Assembly: GCA_029945855.1 (NCBI GenBank)
Contig: JAQSDJ010000074.1
Coordinates: forward strand, 1 to 48,344
Direction of reading: 5' to 3'
Source: Lacunisphaera sp.
Lineage (GTDB): Bacteria; Verrucomicrobiota; Verrucomicrobiia; Opitutales; Opitutaceae
Length of the DNA: 48,344 nucleotides
A program made the translations under genes and the position numbers. The notes below the pieces were generated by a model. That model saw only the letters and a list, made by a program, of their open reading frames with translations, did not search any database and had not been told where the DNA came from. Shown here piece after piece: positions 3,281 to 48,274 of the stretch (the stretch's first letter is position 1; each line of letters begins with the position of its first letter).

Positions 3281-6055
3281 ATGCAAACCATGAATTCTAT
3301 CCCTCGTTTCACCCGTAGCGCGACCCTCGTCGCCGCTATGGTGTTTACCGGCGCGCTGGCGCAAGCCCAGCAGACTGATCCGGCACCCGCCAAACCCGCC
3401 ACCACCGACGAGGTCGTCGTGCTGGAAAAATACACCGTCACATCGGGTTTCGCGGGCAGCCTCGCGGCCGCGGCCGAGATGAAGCAGAAGCAGAAGGTCA
3501 TCACGGAGGTCATCGCCTCCGAGGACATCGGCAAGCTGCCCGACATCTCCATCGCCGACGCGCTCACCCGCCTGACCGGCCTGACCACCCAGCGTTCCAA
3601 CGGCCGCAGCCAGGCCATCAGCATCCGCGGCCTGACCGGCGACTTCAGCACCGGCCTCCTCAACGGCCGCGAGCAGGTCTCCACCGGCATGAACCGCGCG
3701 GTCGAGTTCGACCAGTATCCCGCCGACCTGCTCAGCGAGGTCGTCGTCTACAAGACCGCCTCGCCCAGCCTCATCGGCCAGGGTTTGGCCGGTTCCATCG
3801 ACCTGCGCACCGTGCGCCCGCTGGAAAAATCCGGCCGCGTCGTCGCCGTCAACGGCTACTACGAGTGGAACGAGCTCGGCGCCCTGACCCCCAGCGCTAA
3901 GTCCACCGGCAACCGTTTCAACTTCTCCTACATCGACCAGCTCGCCGACGGCAAGGTGGGCATCGCGCTCGGTTACTCGCATTCGAGCAAGCCCTTCGCC
4001 GGCCAGCAGTTCCAGGCCTGGGGTTATCCCACCGACGCCGCGGGCAACTTCGCGCTCGGCGGCATGAAGCCCTACGTGCGCAACAGCGTGCTCGACCGCG
4101 ACGGCTTCATGGGCGTGTTCGAATACAAGCCCAACGACAACATCCACAGCATCGTGGACATCTACTACTCCAAGTTTGAGGAGAACCAGAACCTGCGCGG
4201 CATGGAAGTGCCGCTGGCCTTCTGGAGCTCCGCGGTCCTCCAGCCCGGCTACACCACCAGCGGCGGACTCATCACCAACGCCACGCTCACCAATGTCCAG
4301 CCCATCGTCCGCAACGACGTCTTCAAGCGCACCGACAAGCCGATCGCCATCGGCTGGAACCTGGTCATGGGCAAGAAATCCGACTGGCCCGTCACCCTTG
4401 ACGCGAGCTACTCGAAGGTCGCCCGCGAGGACTTCAATCTCGAGCTCTGGGCCGGCATCGGCTCGCTCGGCACCCCGTTCACCACGGCCGACACGATGAC
4501 GGTCAAGCTGACCCCCGGCGGGATCCCGGTCGTCACGCCCACGAAGAACTACGCGGACGCCTCCATCCTGAAGATCAGCGACCCGCAGGGCTGGCAGTCC
4601 TGGAAATTCCCCGCCACCGGCGCGCCCGGCTACTACAAGGGTTTCCAGTCCAAGGATGAGATCGGCCAGTTCAAGCTCTCCACCCGCCATGAACTCCCGC
4701 GCTTCTTCGAGGCCGTCGAGGTCGGCGTCAGCTACACCGACCGCTACAAGAAGGACGGCGAGAATCCCTCCGGCTTCCCGGTCCTGAAGAGCGGCGCCGC
4801 CACCGCGGCGATGCCGGCCTCGGTCGGCACGACCGACTTCAGCTACGTCGGCATCGGCCCGATCTACGCCTTCGACCCGCTCGCCTACTTCAACTCGGGC
4901 GCCTTCACCCTCGTGGGCAACGACGGCACCGACTTCATCGCCCGCCGCTTCCAGGTGCGCGAGAAGGTCACCCAGCTCTACGCGCAGTTCGACATCAACA
5001 CCAAGGCCGGCAAGGTCCCGGTCACGGGCAACATCGGCTTCCGCATCATCGGCACGGACCAGTCCTCCAAGGGGCTCTCCGCCAACGGCAATACCGTGAA
5101 CGTGGTCGAGGACGGCGACACCTACACGCAGTTCTCGCCCAGCCTGAACCTCAACTTCGAGCTCTCGGAGCGGAGCGTCATGCGCTTCAGCCTCGCCCGG
5201 CAGATCGCCCGGCCCCGCATGTATGACATGCGCGCCTCGCGCACCTGGGGCTACGACCCGACGAAGGCGACTTCAACCGACCTCACGCAGGGCCCGTGGA
5301 GCGGCGGCGGTGGCAACAGCGCCCTCCGTCCCTGGGTGGCCGACTCGGTGGACCTCTCCTACGAGCATTATTTCAAGGGCAACAAGGGCTACGTGGCCGT
5401 GGCCGGCTTCGCCAAGAAGCTGCGCAACTTCATCTACGAGCAGAGTGCGCTGGCCGACTTCACCGGCTACCCGGTCTCCGGCGGCACCAACCCCGCCCTC
5501 CTGCAGGGCGTCGTCTCGCAGCCGATGAACGGCGACGGCGGCAACATCAAGGGCCTCGAGTTCACGCTCTCGCTCGCCAGCGAGATGATCAACGAGAACA
5601 TCCGCGGCTTCGGCGTGGTGGTCGGCGGCGCGCTGACCAAGAGCAGCATCAAGCCCTGGGGCCCGACCGGCGGTGACGCCCCGATCGGCGGCCTCTCCGA
5701 GAAGGTCGCCAACGTCACGGTCTATTACGAGCGCCACGGCTTCTCCGCCCGCGTGAGCAACCGCTATCGCTCCGAGAACCGCCAATACATCACCACGTTC
5801 GGCGTGCCGAGCCCGAGCGGCGACGTGAACCCCAACGGCGGCTTCGCCATGGCGCAGCCCGAGAGCGTGATGGACGCCCAGGTCAGCTACACCTTCGACA
5901 AGAACAGCCGCATGAAGAACCTCTCGATCTTCCTGCAGGGCTACAACCTGACCAACGAGCCGCTCGTCACCTACAACAACGACGATCCGCGCCAGGTCAT
6001 CAACTACCAGAAATACGGCGCGTCCTACTCTTTCGGCGCGGCCTACAAGTTCTAA
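3281..6055 (+). CDS. TonB-dependent outer-membrane receptor (TIGR01782-like), probable maltodextrin uptake
   Basis: 924-residue outer-membrane receptor that would use TonB/ExbBD energy to import a substrate. Signal peptide to about residue 33 (ending ALAQAQ); a second in-frame ATG at 3290 (MNSIPRF) is an equally plausible start. The plug domain is visible (ITEVIASEDIGKLPDISIAD, ALTRLTGLTTQRSNGRSQ, ISIRGL, EVVVYKTASPSLIGQGLAGS) and the rest is a beta-barrel ending in an aromatic C-terminus (SYSFGAAYKF), as expected for BAM recognition. The plug resembles the Caulobacter/Xanthomonas TIGR01782 group, which includes maltodextrin receptors such as Caulobacter MalA. No SusD partner is adjacent, so this is not a Bacteroidetes SusCD pair. 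Substrate is inferred from the flanking amylases and malQ. Confidence 0.93.
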   Translation: MQTMNSIPRFTRSATLVAAMVFTGALAQAQQTDPAPAKPATTDEVVVLEKYTVTSGFAGSLAAAAEMKQKQKVITEVIASEDIGKLPDISIADALTRLTGLTTQRSNGRSQAISIRGLTGDFSTGLLNGREQVSTGMNRAVEFDQYPADLLSEVVVYKTASPSLIGQGLAGSIDLRTVRPLEKSGRVVAVNGYYEWNELGALTPSAKSTGNRFNFSYIDQLADGKVGIALGYSHSSKPFAGQQFQAWGYPTDAAGNFALGGMKPYVRNSVLDRDGFMGVFEYKPNDNIHSIVDIYYSKFEENQNLRGMEVPLAFWSSAVLQPGYTTSGGLITNATLTNVQPIVRNDVFKRTDKPIAIGWNLVMGKKSDWPVTLDASYSKVAREDFNLELWAGIGSLGTPFTTADTMTVKLTPGGIPVVTPTKNYADASILKISDPQGWQSWKFPATGAPGYYKGFQSKDEIGQFKLSTRHELPRFFEAVEVGVSYTDRYKKDGENPSGFPVLKSGAATAAMPASVGTTDFSYVGIGPIYAFDPLAYFNSGAFTLVGNDGTDFIARRFQVREKVTQLYAQFDINTKAGKVPVTGNIGFRIIGTDQSSKGLSANGNTVNVVEDGDTYTQFSPSLNLNFELSERSVMRFSLARQIARPRMYDMRASRTWGYDPTKATSTDLTQGPWSGGGGNSALRPWVADSVDLSYEHYFKGNKGYVAVAGFAKKLRNFIYEQSALADFTGYPVSGGTNPALLQGVVSQPMNGDGGNIKGLEFTLSLASEMINENIRGFGVVVGGALTKSSIKPWGPTGGDAPIGGLSEKVANVTVYYERHGFSARVSNRYRSENRQYITTFGVPSPSGDVNPNGGFAMAQPESVMDAQVSYTFDKNSRMKNLSIFLQGYNLTNEPLVTYNNDDPRQVINYQKYGASYSFGAAYKF

Positions 6056-17876: not shown

Positions 17877-17884
17877 GTAATACT

Positions 17885-32334: not shown

Positions 32335-33444
<1,110 letters not shown>

Positions 33445-33456
33445 GGCGGCTGACTT

Positions 33457-33511
33457 GTAGGCCGGGCCCCGGGCCCGACACAAGCAATGTCGGGCGTAAA
33501 GCCCGACCTAC
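33457..33511. repeat. REP/BIME-like palindrome, GTAG-GTCGGGC family (copy A)
   Basis: Left unit GTAG-gccgggc-cccg-ggcccgac; right unit, on the other strand, GTAG-gtcgggc-tttac-gcccgac. It fills the space between the divergent rlmN and TIGR01777 genes. It holds the alternative TTG of rlmN and an in-frame but probably unused ATG of the downstream gene. Confidence 0.85.
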
Positions 33512-45688: not shown

Positions 45689-45758
45689 GTGGAAGGGGCT
45701 TTATGCCCCGACGGGATATCAGCGGCATCCGATGTCGGGGCATAAAGCCCCTCCCACC
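45689..45758. repeat. GTGG-(A/G)AGGGGCTTTATGCCCC palindrome
   Basis: Both ends carry gtgg(a/g)aggggctttatgcccc in opposite orientation, with cgacatcgg-type inner sequence. Same two-hairpin architecture as the GTAG elements, with GTGG in place of GTAG. It lies downstream of rlmD. Confidence 0.75.
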
Positions 45759-45778
45759 CAGTTGCCGGCGCGTCCTCC

Positions 45779-47155
45779 TCACCGCCGCAGCGTGATCACG
45801 CACTCGAGGTGGCGCGTCTGCGGAAACAGGTCGAAGGGCTGCACGGCGGTGAGCTTGTAGCCGGCGGCAAGGAAACCCTTGAGGTCGCGCATCTGCGTGG
45901 CCGGATCGCAGGAAACGTAGACCACCGCGCGCGGACCAAACGCAAAAAGCTGCTGCAGGAAGGCCTCGTCGCACCCCTTGCGGGGCGGATCAATGACCAC
46001 GGCCGTGTCGGCCGGCGGGAACTCCAGCCCGGCAAAGATTTGCGCCGCATCGGCGGCGCGGAAAGTGGCGTTGCCGATGCCGTTGGCGGCGGCGTTTTCC
46101 GTGGCGAATTTCACGGACGTGGCGCTCAATTCGACCCCGGACACCCGCTCGAAGGCCGGAGCGCAGCTCAGGGCGAACAGCCCGCTGCCGCAGTAGGCGT
46201 CGATCAGGAAGTTGGCGCCGCTGCCGGCCGCCTGCTCGCGGACATAGCCGGTGAACTTTTCTAGAATAAACGGGTTATTCTGGAAAAAGTCGCGGGCGAG
46301 GAATCTGAGTTGGAGCGGCGGCGACCCCGCCGCCGGATCATTCGCGGCCGGGGTCGGCCGCGCTCCAGATTGGGGAATCGATTCCGTGATAATCGCGTCG
46401 TAGTCGGTGATGACGCCTTCCTGGGCATGGCGCAGCAACAGGGTGGCGGCGCGCTTGTATTCCCCGGCGGCGATCCGCGCCTGGGTCCTGGCCCGGACTT
46501 CCGTGAGCTTGGCGTTGATCTCCGGGGTGGCGATGGGGCACTGGGGCACATCGACGATCTCGAAGCGCGAGCCTTGTTTGAGAAAACCGATGGCGGCGGG
46601 CTCGCCGACCGCTCGATCTTTGCTCCACGCCTGGAAGTGCGGCGTGATCTTCGAGCGGTAGCCGAATTCCCGCGGCGAGCCGATGACTGGGCTGACGGCG
46701 AATTCCACCCCGGCCATATATTTCAACAATTCCTCCACCTGCTGGCGCTTCCACTTCAACTGTTCGGCATAGGTCAGGTGCTGGTATTGGCAGCCGCCGC
46801 AACGGCCGAAGAGCGGACATTGCGGGTCGATGCGGTGCGGGGAGGGTGTCAGCACGGCCAGCAGGTCGGCCTCGGAAAAATTCTTGTGGTTGCGGTAGAC
46901 GCGCGCCCGCACCTTTTCGCCGGGGAGGGTAAAGGGGACCATCACGACCCAGCCGGAGGATGGCGAAGAAACCTGAGACCTGAAACCTGAGACCTGAGGA
47001 TCCGATCCCTGTCCTCCGTCCTCGGTCTTCTGTTCTCTAGCCGCAGGCACCTGCACGCGGCCAAGGCCCACGCCGAGGTTGGTCAGCGTGGAAATCTCCA
47101 GCTCGATCTCGGTGCGGTAGGGAAAGGGGAGGTCGTTGAATTTCTTTTTGCCCAC
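45779..47155 (-). CDS. rlmD: 23S rRNA (uracil-C5) methyltransferase, RlmD/RumA type, with two in-frame insertions
   Basis: 458 residues if started at GTG 47155 (MGKKKFNDLPFPYRTEIELE), which lies in a repeat; no ATG fits. N-terminal TRAM domain (ISTLTNLGVGLGRVQV ... GWVVMVPFTLPGEKVRARVY); iron-sulfur Cys in QCPLFGRCGGCQYQHL and VPQCPIATPE; SAM motif DAYCGSGLFALS; VIDPPRKGCDEAF; catalytic Cys in YVSCDPATQMRDL. Two inserts interrupt it: residues ~41-66 in the TRAM domain (EQKTEDGGQGSDPQVSGFRS), encoded by a low-complexity repeat, and ~263-281 (GARPTPAANDPAAGSPP), encoded by a 57-base palindrome. Whether U1939, U747 or U54-tRNA is the target cannot be told. Confidence 0.92.
   Translation of the reverse strand: MGKKKFNDLPFPYRTEIELEISTLTNLGVGLGRVQVPAAREQKTEDGGQGSDPQVSGFRSQVSSPSSGWVVMVPFTLPGEKVRARVYRNHKNFSEADLLAVLTPSPHRIDPQCPLFGRCGGCQYQHLTYAEQLKWKRQQVEELLKYMAGVEFAVSPVIGSPREFGYRSKITPHFQAWSKDRAVGEPAAIGFLKQGSRFEIVDVPQCPIATPEINAKLTEVRARTQARIAAGEYKRAATLLLRHAQEGVITDYDAIITESIPQSGARPTPAANDPAAGSPPLQLRFLARDFFQNNPFILEKFTGYVREQAAGSGANFLIDAYCGSGLFALSCAPAFERVSGVELSATSVKFATENAAANGIGNATFRAADAAQIFAGLEFPPADTAVVIDPPRKGCDEAFLQQLFAFGPRAVVYVSCDPATQMRDLKGFLAAGYKLTAVQPFDLFPQTRHLECVITLRR
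46311..46367. repeat. TGGAGCG palindrome inside rlmD
   Basis: 57 bases (19 codons) with ends tggagcg and cgctcca; each arm carries an inner mini-palindrome (gcggc-gacccc-gccgc and cggcc-gacccc-ggccg). Wholly inside the reading frame. Confidence 0.85.
46965..47039. repeat. Low-complexity insertion inside the TRAM domain of rlmD
   Basis: Contains acctgagacctga / aacctgagacctga direct repeats followed by a tcctccgtcctcggtcttctg stretch (two pieces: tcctccgtcctcgg, tcttctgttctc). Translated as EQKTEDGGQGSDP then QVSGFRSQVSS. Similar purine-tract style to the ctgaaag family. Ends approximate. Confidence 0.7.
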
Positions 47156-47385
47156 GAAACACACGAAAGACACGAAAGCAGGCAGGGGAAGATAAAAGCT
47201 CAAGGCTTCCAAACAAAACAACGGCCCGCGAATGACGCGAATTGACGCGAATACCAAAAAGGAAGGAGTGAAAGCACCCCGCTTGCTTGATTCGCGTCAA
47301 TTCGTGTCATTCGCGGGAGACCTGCCGGTGGGTTTTTAAGAAGTTTGGTTTGGCTCTTTCGTGCTTTTTAGTGTGTTTCGTGGGC
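47150..47385. repeat. Nested inverted repeats between rlmD and the TrmH gene
   Basis: Outer arms: gcccacgaaacacacgaaag (47150) and ctttcgtg...gtgtttcgtgggc (47356-47385). Inner arms: cccgcgaatgacgcgaattg (near 47226) and caattcgtgtcattcgcggg (near 47300). The outer arms touch the GTG start of rlmD and the ATG of the TrmH gene, two bases away. The promoters of both divergent genes must lie in or between the arms. Confidence 0.82.
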
Positions 47386-47386
47386 A

Positions 47387-48274
47387 ATGTCTCTGCCTGA
47401 GAAGATCACCAGCCTGCAAAATCCCCGCGTAAAGACCCTCGTGCGGCTGCGCGAGCGGCGCGATCGCGACGAGGCGGGGGTGTTCTTCATCGAGGGCTAC
47501 CGCGAGGTGCGCCGGGCTTTGGAGAAGTCGGTCCGCCTGCAGGAGCTTTATTTCTGCCCCGACTGGTTTTTGGGTGAGAACGAGCCGGCGCTGATCGAAC
47601 AGGCGCAACAGGCCGGGGCTCAACTCTTCGAATTATCCAAGGACGCCTTCGCCAAGGTCGCCTACCGGGAGCGCCCCGACGGTCTGCTGGCCGTGGCGCC
47701 GCAGTGGAAGCACAGTCTGAGCGATATTCCCGTAGGTCGGGCTTTACGCCCGACAAATGCGACCGATGTCGGGGATTCCGCCGTCGCCGGGCCTATGGCG
47801 GACAAGAAACCCCGACCTACAGATCCTTTTCTGCTCGTGGTCGAGGCCATCGAAAAGCCCGGCAATCTCGGCACGATTTTGCGCAGCGCCGATGCCGCCG
47901 GCTGCGATGCCGTGATCGTGTGCGATCCGGTGACGGATATTTTCAATCCGAACGTCGTGCGCGCCTCGACCGGCGTTTTGTTCTCCGTCCCGGTGGTCGT
48001 CGCCGACAGCGCCTCGGTGCACGCCTTTTTGGTGGAGAAAGGCATCCGGATCGTCGCGACGACGCCCGACACGCCGAATGTTTATACCAAGGTCGATCTG
48101 CGCGGCCCGCTGGCGATCGTCATGGGTAGCGAGCAATACGGCCTGAGCGATTTCTGGCTGAAGGAAAGCAATCTCCTCGTGCGCATCCCCATGGCCGGCC
48201 AGGCCGACTCCCTCAACGTCGCCATGGCGACGATCATCACGCTCTTCGAGGCGGTCCGGCAGCGGAATGGGTGA
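47387..48274 (+). CDS. TrmH/SpoU-family RNA 2'-O-methyltransferase with in-frame repeat insertion
   Basis: 295 residues, ATG 47387 (MSLPEKITSLQNPRVKTLVR). N-terminal RNA-binding SpoU_sub_bind-like domain (FFIEGYREVRRALEKSVRLQ, VAYRERPDGLLAVAPQW), then a SPOUT domain with the three family motifs: IEKPGNLGTILRSADAAG, IVMGSEQYGLS and IPMAGQADSLNVAMA. Target (23S rRNA or tRNA) not determinable. Residues ~116-145 (VGRALRPTNATDVGDSAVAG, then PMADKKPRPT) come from an 89-base GTAG palindrome sitting in the linker between the two domains. A further GTAG element begins 17 bases after the stop. Confidence 0.93.
   Translation: MSLPEKITSLQNPRVKTLVRLRERRDRDEAGVFFIEGYREVRRALEKSVRLQELYFCPDWFLGENEPALIEQAQQAGAQLFELSKDAFAKVAYRERPDGLLAVAPQWKHSLSDIPVGRALRPTNATDVGDSAVAGPMADKKPRPTDPFLLVVEAIEKPGNLGTILRSADAAGCDAVIVCDPVTDIFNPNVVRASTGVLFSVPVVVADSASVHAFLVEKGIRIVATTPDTPNVYTKVDLRGPLAIVMGSEQYGLSDFWLKESNLLVRIPMAGQADSLNVAMATIITLFEAVRQRNG
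47732..47820. repeat. REP/BIME-like palindrome inside the TrmH-family gene, GTAG-GTCGGGC family (copy B)
   Basis: Left unit GTAG-gtcgggc-tttac-gcccgac; right unit GTAG-gtcgggg on the other strand, with a longer, partly paired middle (gccgtcgccgggcctatggcgg). 89 bases entirely inside the reading frame. Confidence 0.9.

Follow-up and report, generated by a model that had tools for sequence, protein, structure and literature searches.

A putative REP dimer read in frame within rlmD of a Lacunisphaera genome, and loops of varying length in three RNA methyltransferases

The window analysed here is the whole stretch of 48,344 nucleotides from Lacunisphaera sp. (contig JAQSDJ010000074.1), part of a 5.0 Mb assembly in 330 contigs (G000). 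Towards its right-hand end lies rlmD, for a 23S rRNA (uracil-C5) methyltransferase (Table 1). Its product matches the NCBIfam RlmD/rumA model TIGR00479 with 271 bits (cut-off 183.55), and among solved structures RumA (1uwv, E 2.5e-43) comes closest. All 29 aligned sequences have the cysteines 147, 153, 156, 240 and 450 and Glu 485, which by comparison with RumA we take to be the residues of the cluster and of catalysis, and the gene looks intact with its insert. The called start (window 47149-47257) sits in a dispersed CCCACGAAACACACGAAA repeat with another copy at 17884; the first ~37 called codons are probably untranslated and the true start would lie further in. Further intergenic palindromes are found on both sides of rlmD, at 45690-45760 and 47225-47317.

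Table 1. Features of the window discussed in the text (window coordinates).
Feature	Position	Strand	Remarks
rlmD, 23S rRNA (uracil-C5) methyltransferase	45779..47257	-	TIGR00479 rumA
REP unit 1 of dimer	46311..46335	+	head TGGAGCG + hairpin; starts TGGAGCGGC
Spacer, REP unit 1 to unit 2	46336..46342	.	7 nt
REP unit 2, inverted	46343..46367	-	minus-strand head TGGAGCG; starts TGGAGCGCG
Second rlmD insert, non-palindromic, low-complexity CCTGAGACCTGAAACC tract	46961..47038	-	residues about 74-99
Type A REP dimer in rlmN (32335-33483, minus)	32931..32995	.	in frame
Type C REP (47732-47755) + diverged second half, linker of TrmH/SpoU gene (47387-48274)	47732..47821	+	

A sequence-only reading of this DNA had claimed a 57-base palindrome in rlmD with the ends tggagcg/cgctcca and two inner mini-hairpins, and both parts of this description were confirmed. 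The palindrome (46311-46367, TGGAGCG...CGCTCCA) spans 57 nt and its minus strand is read in the rlmD frame, giving IITESIPQSGARPTPAANDPAAGSPPLQLRFLARDFF, in which the insert peptide forms residues 297-316 of RlmD. It folds better than dinucleotide-preserving shuffles of itself on the plus strand (z -4.1; 0/200 shuffles as good) as well as on the minus strand (z -4.6; 1/200). The TGGAGCG/CGCTCCA head pair alone is weak evidence, with 1 match against 0.06 expected and a presence in 6/100 shuffles. The two hairpins coincide with the two inverted 25-nt units in Table 1, each a stem-loop with a fixed head, and with the 7-nt spacer they make up the anatomy of a REP dimer or REPIN. The usual location of REPs is extragenic and this element is intragenic, a departure from a rule that is not strict, as intragenic cases have been published. 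The G that would precede TGGAGCG in a GTGG foot is absent from both ends of the rlmD copy. In an AlphaFold model of RlmD (mean pLDDT 70.8, 29 sequences) most of residues 297-316 are placed between predicted strands 289-294 and 315-320, with a pLDDT of 54 for residues 301-310, and the insertion site is accordingly modelled as a turn joining two predicted beta strands. The residues of the second rlmD insert are predicted to be disordered (pLDDT below 50).

The family to which the element is assigned, here named type B, is seen through relatives and not through copy number in G000, since the exact head pair occurs at 2 places in this genome and a reversed control pattern at 6. A looser pattern gave 31 places against 135 for its control, so that its matches are mostly chance. 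In the congeners G018 and G010 the head pair was found at 15 places (control 5) and 10 places (control 0), respectively. Sixteen copies were aligned, 15 from the congeners G010, G018 and G019 and one from another genus (G036); L410, which looks like a chance match, L412, at 42 nt, and places lacking a locus were excluded. One arm starts with TGGAGCGCG in 16/16 of these copies and the other with TGGAGCGGC in 14/16, and the same asymmetry is present in the rlmD dimer. Of the 32 ends at 16 places in two congeners, 30 have a G before TGGAGCG and the remaining two belong to L410; the G is also present in a copy on contig C273. A GTGG foot has been reported for the GTAG-20 repeats of Opitutus terrae (Di Nocera et al., 2013; PMC3733652).

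Two models of the aligned copies, R1 and R2, were built with the window excluded. R1 has the structure as computed, one long hairpin, and favours any palindrome, and R2 has two hairpins set by hand. The whole rlmD dimer scored 34.3 bits with R1 (E 4.4e-6) and 22.8 bits with R2 (E 0.005), and the C273 copy 62.0 and 68.6 bits. Under both models the rlmD copy is outscored by two type D elements of the window; given this and the R2 E value of only 0.005, it is at best a divergent representative of a B/D superfamily. Judged by its sequence, the rlmD element is read as a REP dimer of the REPIN type, belonging in diverged form to a family that is common among the congeners.

Across 81 RlmD rows, the site of residues 297-316 is a short, empty loop in 42, and an insert of at least 10 aa lies there in 13. 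Inserts at other positions occur near residue 76 (14/81) and near residues 212-216 (14/81). The insert DNA at the loop is unlike between rows, different repeats occupying the same loop in other lineages: palindromes in L050, L066, L071 and L110, and, as judged by eye, heptamer tracts in L096, L052, L054, L057 and L079, while no origin was assigned to the inserts of L062, L082 and L084. An automatic palindrome flag marked 7/81 rows, an undercount, as it used mononucleotide shuffles on clipped segments and missed the window's own palindrome. The palindrome in the L050 loop (2820-2869) presumably resembles Pseudomonas REPs; it was matched by R1 (21.8 bits, E 0.006) and gave no match with R2, and on this sequence evidence it may be distantly related to type B. 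Another strong type B-like element lies in the same locus, at 4377-4438.

Two further RNA methyltransferase genes of the window carry inserts (Table 1): rlmN, recognised by TIGR00048 (301 bits, cut-off 290), and a TrmH/SpoU gene with SpoU_methylase and MRM3-like_sub_bind domains, where the repeat is likewise in frame and the extent of the second half of the insert was judged by eye from the translation. It had been claimed that inserts are present in each of the three RNA methyltransferase genes towards the right-hand end and, as far as could be seen, in no other gene, and this is borne out by the catalogue of families A to D, in which rlmD, rlmN and the TrmH/SpoU gene are the only window genes with inserts. 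The related claim that rlmD is the third such enzyme hit by a repeat stands as regards the insert itself; the repeats, however, differ in family from gene to gene, being type B in rlmD, type A in rlmN and type C in trmH, and rlmD holds a second insert besides. A type C REP at window 33488-33511 supplies the first codons of an ORF called at 33487, the start of which is probably misplaced.

The variability of the loops was compared by counting a row when an internal loop exceeds the 10th percentile by at least 10 aa. Long internal loops were found in 45/81 RlmD, 22/30 RlmN and 11/30 TrmH rows, against 1/30 for NadB and 0/20 for SdhA-like proteins; as these controls are two related flavoproteins and the RlmD rows come from another collection, the figures are a comparison and no test of protein classes. 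They fit well the alternative, put forward in the sequence-only reading, that genes with tolerant loops are hit. With an earlier counter (10 residues in rare columns) the numbers were 33/81 for RlmD, 11/30 for TrmH, 2/30 for RlmN and 1/30 for NadB. The view of RlmN as not insert-prone that followed from it was overturned by the loop-length measure; the earlier counter missed even the insert of the window's rlmN, because variation in the RlmN loop extends to almost all relatives. The RlmN inserts of L351 (GRGVPAEP...HPEGSPYP) and L355 (VGRTVPGEP...ASPYP) appear by eye to be type A REP-like. Several of the RlmN loops in L351, L355, L361, L371, L372 and L374 have a KCHVIRD/TCHLLG-like peptide, which may represent yet another repeat family.

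Repeats within genes were surveyed in G000 by patterns for the families A (GGTAGGGCGA), B, C (GTAGGTCGGGCTTTACG) and D (GGTAGGGGCCGTTG). Type A contributed 100 half-matches minus three contig-end places (C203, C209 and C310), type C 100 listed of 137 half-matches minus two contig-end places (C130 and C289), and type D 81 half-match places, of which eight were left out. The resulting set comprised 246 distinct copies in 219 loci, 14 of which, with less than 120 nt on one side, could not be judged. According to a hexamer coding model (lowest accepted score 21.5, next 4.7), 40 of the surveyed copies lie in frame inside genes. These are 35 ORF entries and 34 genes, as L152 and L333 are one hrpA. 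The 40 of 232 judgeable copies fall far below the coding share of 76% (P about 1e-78). Five genes hold two or three inserts against 0.4 expected, a number never reached in 2000 simulations that used 2,900 genes, a low estimate: hrpA with three, and mfd, a U32 gene, a DsbH-domain gene and an E1 dehydrogenase gene with two each. In hrpA (contig C133) one of the three inserts is a REP dimer of type A and the other two are REP dimers of type D. Peptides that recur among the in-frame copies include VGRALRPT and GRVVPDEP. Over the 10 bases preceding the repeat heads no target motif above 0.2 bits was detected in family A (128 ends) or D (49 ends); upstream of family C heads (133 ends) there is only a T at -1 (1.0 bit), probably the repeat's own. 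The genes L236 and L237 (contig C149) and L247 (contig C284) are paralogs with one type C dimer each, L236 and L247 having TPR domains; their inserts were perhaps duplicated with the genes, and the 31 insert genes outside the window may therefore represent fewer events.

How the rlmD insert came about can be approached through relatives, the nearest of which by RlmD include Lacunisphaera MAGs (Opitutaceae, Verrucomicrobiota). Two rows, L047 and L049, have a 57-nt insert at the window's rlmD site, and the three inserts show scattered differences. Their folds range from strong in the window (z -4.6) to intermediate in L047 (z -2.7) and none to speak of in L049 (z -0.4); the L047 insert is weakly matched by the type B models (E 0.14 with R1, E 0.012 with R2) and that of L049 by neither. 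In the tree of the 81 rows the window is paired with L048 (98/89 support), in which the site is empty, a pattern that calls for repeated loss, two gains or local recombination. The window and L047 share the bases flanking the insert, and these sequences favour common descent of the two inserts; L047 is closest to the window's rlmD around the insert only, and an rlmD segment may have come in by recombination from an L047-like lineage. A recent transposition, with an element still mobile or acting as a hairpin in the rlmD mRNA, would account for the strong hairpin of the window copy and for the empty site in its nearest relative, but it is most unlikely in view of the same-site inserts of equal length with scattered differences, the flanks shared with L047 and the hairpin lost in L049. 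As the hairpin decays in relatives while length and frame are kept, the rlmD insert looks inert and tolerated. Very probably it descends from an ancestral REP dimer with TGGAGCG heads, of the GTGG/GTAG class. A RAYT (Y1 transposase) would have mobilised this dimer, which would have entered the strand-strand turn of RlmD in frame in an ancestor and been kept by a loop that tolerates extra residues; selection would have removed most copies landing in genes, and the insert would now be a coding spacer, inert and presumably neutral.

Two other explanations concern the kind of gene hit. They were examined with the 31 insert genes outside the window and 59 random control genes from the same loci (60 drawn, L216 being dropped as the insert-bearing YjeF gene again). 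One holds that REPs target genes for RNA methylation or RNA modification, or are preferentially retained in them, because they would alter RNA modification; all three insert-bearing genes of the window are RNA methyltransferases, and their loops are insert-prone across the family. Three of the 31 genes are RNA-modifying: MnmA, a Rsm22-like gene, the sole RNA-methyltransferase-like case, and the U32 gene, nearest TrhP yet below the cut-off of that model. The controls also contain three (RluA-type, Dus and RsmB). The bias towards RNA-methylating genes that had been suggested was not supported by the survey outside the window, either for RNA methyltransferases (1/31 vs 1/59, Fisher P 0.57) or for RNA-modifying genes (3/31 vs 3/59, Fisher P 0.34). 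With the window included, RNA-modifying genes are 6/34 against 3/59 (P 0.056), a post hoc figure, as the window prompted the idea. If RNA-modifying genes make up 1-2% of genes, 3/31 would have a P of 0.004-0.024. The three window genes, however, hold unlike repeat families at unlike sites and the hairpin has decayed in L049, and this explanation is very unlikely; a genome-wide methylation bias was not shown, and what is observed is that the window brings together three genes whose loops vary greatly across the family. A preference for the wider class of nucleic-acid enzymes, either as large modular proteins or by selection for changed activity, has been proposed for REPs (Di Nocera et al., 2013) and is doubtful but less so. 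In addition to the RNA-modifying genes, AlaS, HrpA, HrpB, Mfd, UvrA and TatD belong to this class, the remaining insert genes being metabolic, transport, cell-wall, other or unknown, and gene kinds are shared with the published set (PMC3733652, in part). The count is 9/31 against 7/59 (P 0.044), a weak excess obtained with classes defined after the list was known and with a less strict Pfam cut-off for the insert genes (1e-5 against 1e-12 for controls). It shrinks to P 0.069 when the Y1 transposase (L128) makes eight controls, 0.10 when sigma and GreA make nine and 0.14 with all ten; the insert genes are also longer, with a mean of 603 aa against 405 aa. L268, taken for an ABC-F protein, proved to be a sugar-ABC ATPase and was removed from the class.

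As to a mobiliser, G000 has six Y1_Tnp matches. One of them (L129, contig C125), of RAYT type, lies between type C REPs at 1156-1304 and 1837-1948, and this gene is a candidate mobiliser of type C. Another (L130) is enclosed by a perfect inverted repeat of 28 nt whose head is TGGAGG; its terminal repeats are related, not identical, to type B, and we can only infer a RAYT mobilising type B. As in the REPIN/RAYT system (PMC3116915, in part), the REPs of the rlmD element form an inverted pair around a short spacer, and G000 has Y1_Tnp genes, among them the one flanked by type C REPs. Unlike in that system, the rlmD element lies within a coding sequence and type B copies are few in G000.

Intragenic REPs read in frame have been described, with most of the GTAG cases in Opitutus terrae, in DNA-repair, RNA-helicase and pseudouridine-synthase genes, and flexible loops or linkers were suggested as their sites (Di Nocera et al., 2013; PMC3733652). 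As far as that account was available to us, its GTAG/CGTC REPs agree with the present ones in being tagged palindromes that are in frame and encode 20-30 residues; over half of the in-gene copies are dimers or groups, as is the rlmD element, and uvrA and RNA helicase genes are hit there and in G000. In the recB genes of two Xanthomonas, different REPs lie at about the same site (PMC3733652, in part). The words 'methyltransferase' and 'methylase' are absent from its main text, and no family-wide RlmD, RlmN or TrmH loop was seen in the part available. The same source reports Rickettsia palindromic elements in frame in likely functional genes, including a tRNA pseudouridine synthase. These are likewise in-frame palindromes; they belong to another phylum, with no sequence relation to the rlmD element shown. 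According to the available part of PMC12306157, which mentions neither Verrucomicrobia nor Opitutaceae, REPs seldom overlap coding regions. In the open library searched we found no literature on REPs in RNA methyltransferase genes, which does not prove its absence.

The rlmD insert thus belongs to a type already described, here placed in a tolerant loop, and the recurrent landing loops are a modest new part. A bolder view would see standing landing sites in the turn of RlmD, the loop of RlmN and the linker of TrmH, where selfish repeats repeatedly supply soon hairpin-free peptides to the rRNA-modifying enzymes of the Opitutaceae, some perhaps put to use; this is unlikely. What the rlmD case offers is a REP dimer in a housekeeping enzyme whose frame is preserved while the palindrome fades, next to three RNA methyltransferases with loop lengths that vary across the family and are filled by unlike repeats in various lineages. 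A decayed dimer that keeps its frame, together with such variable loops, makes tolerance, as against targeting or selection, directly testable.
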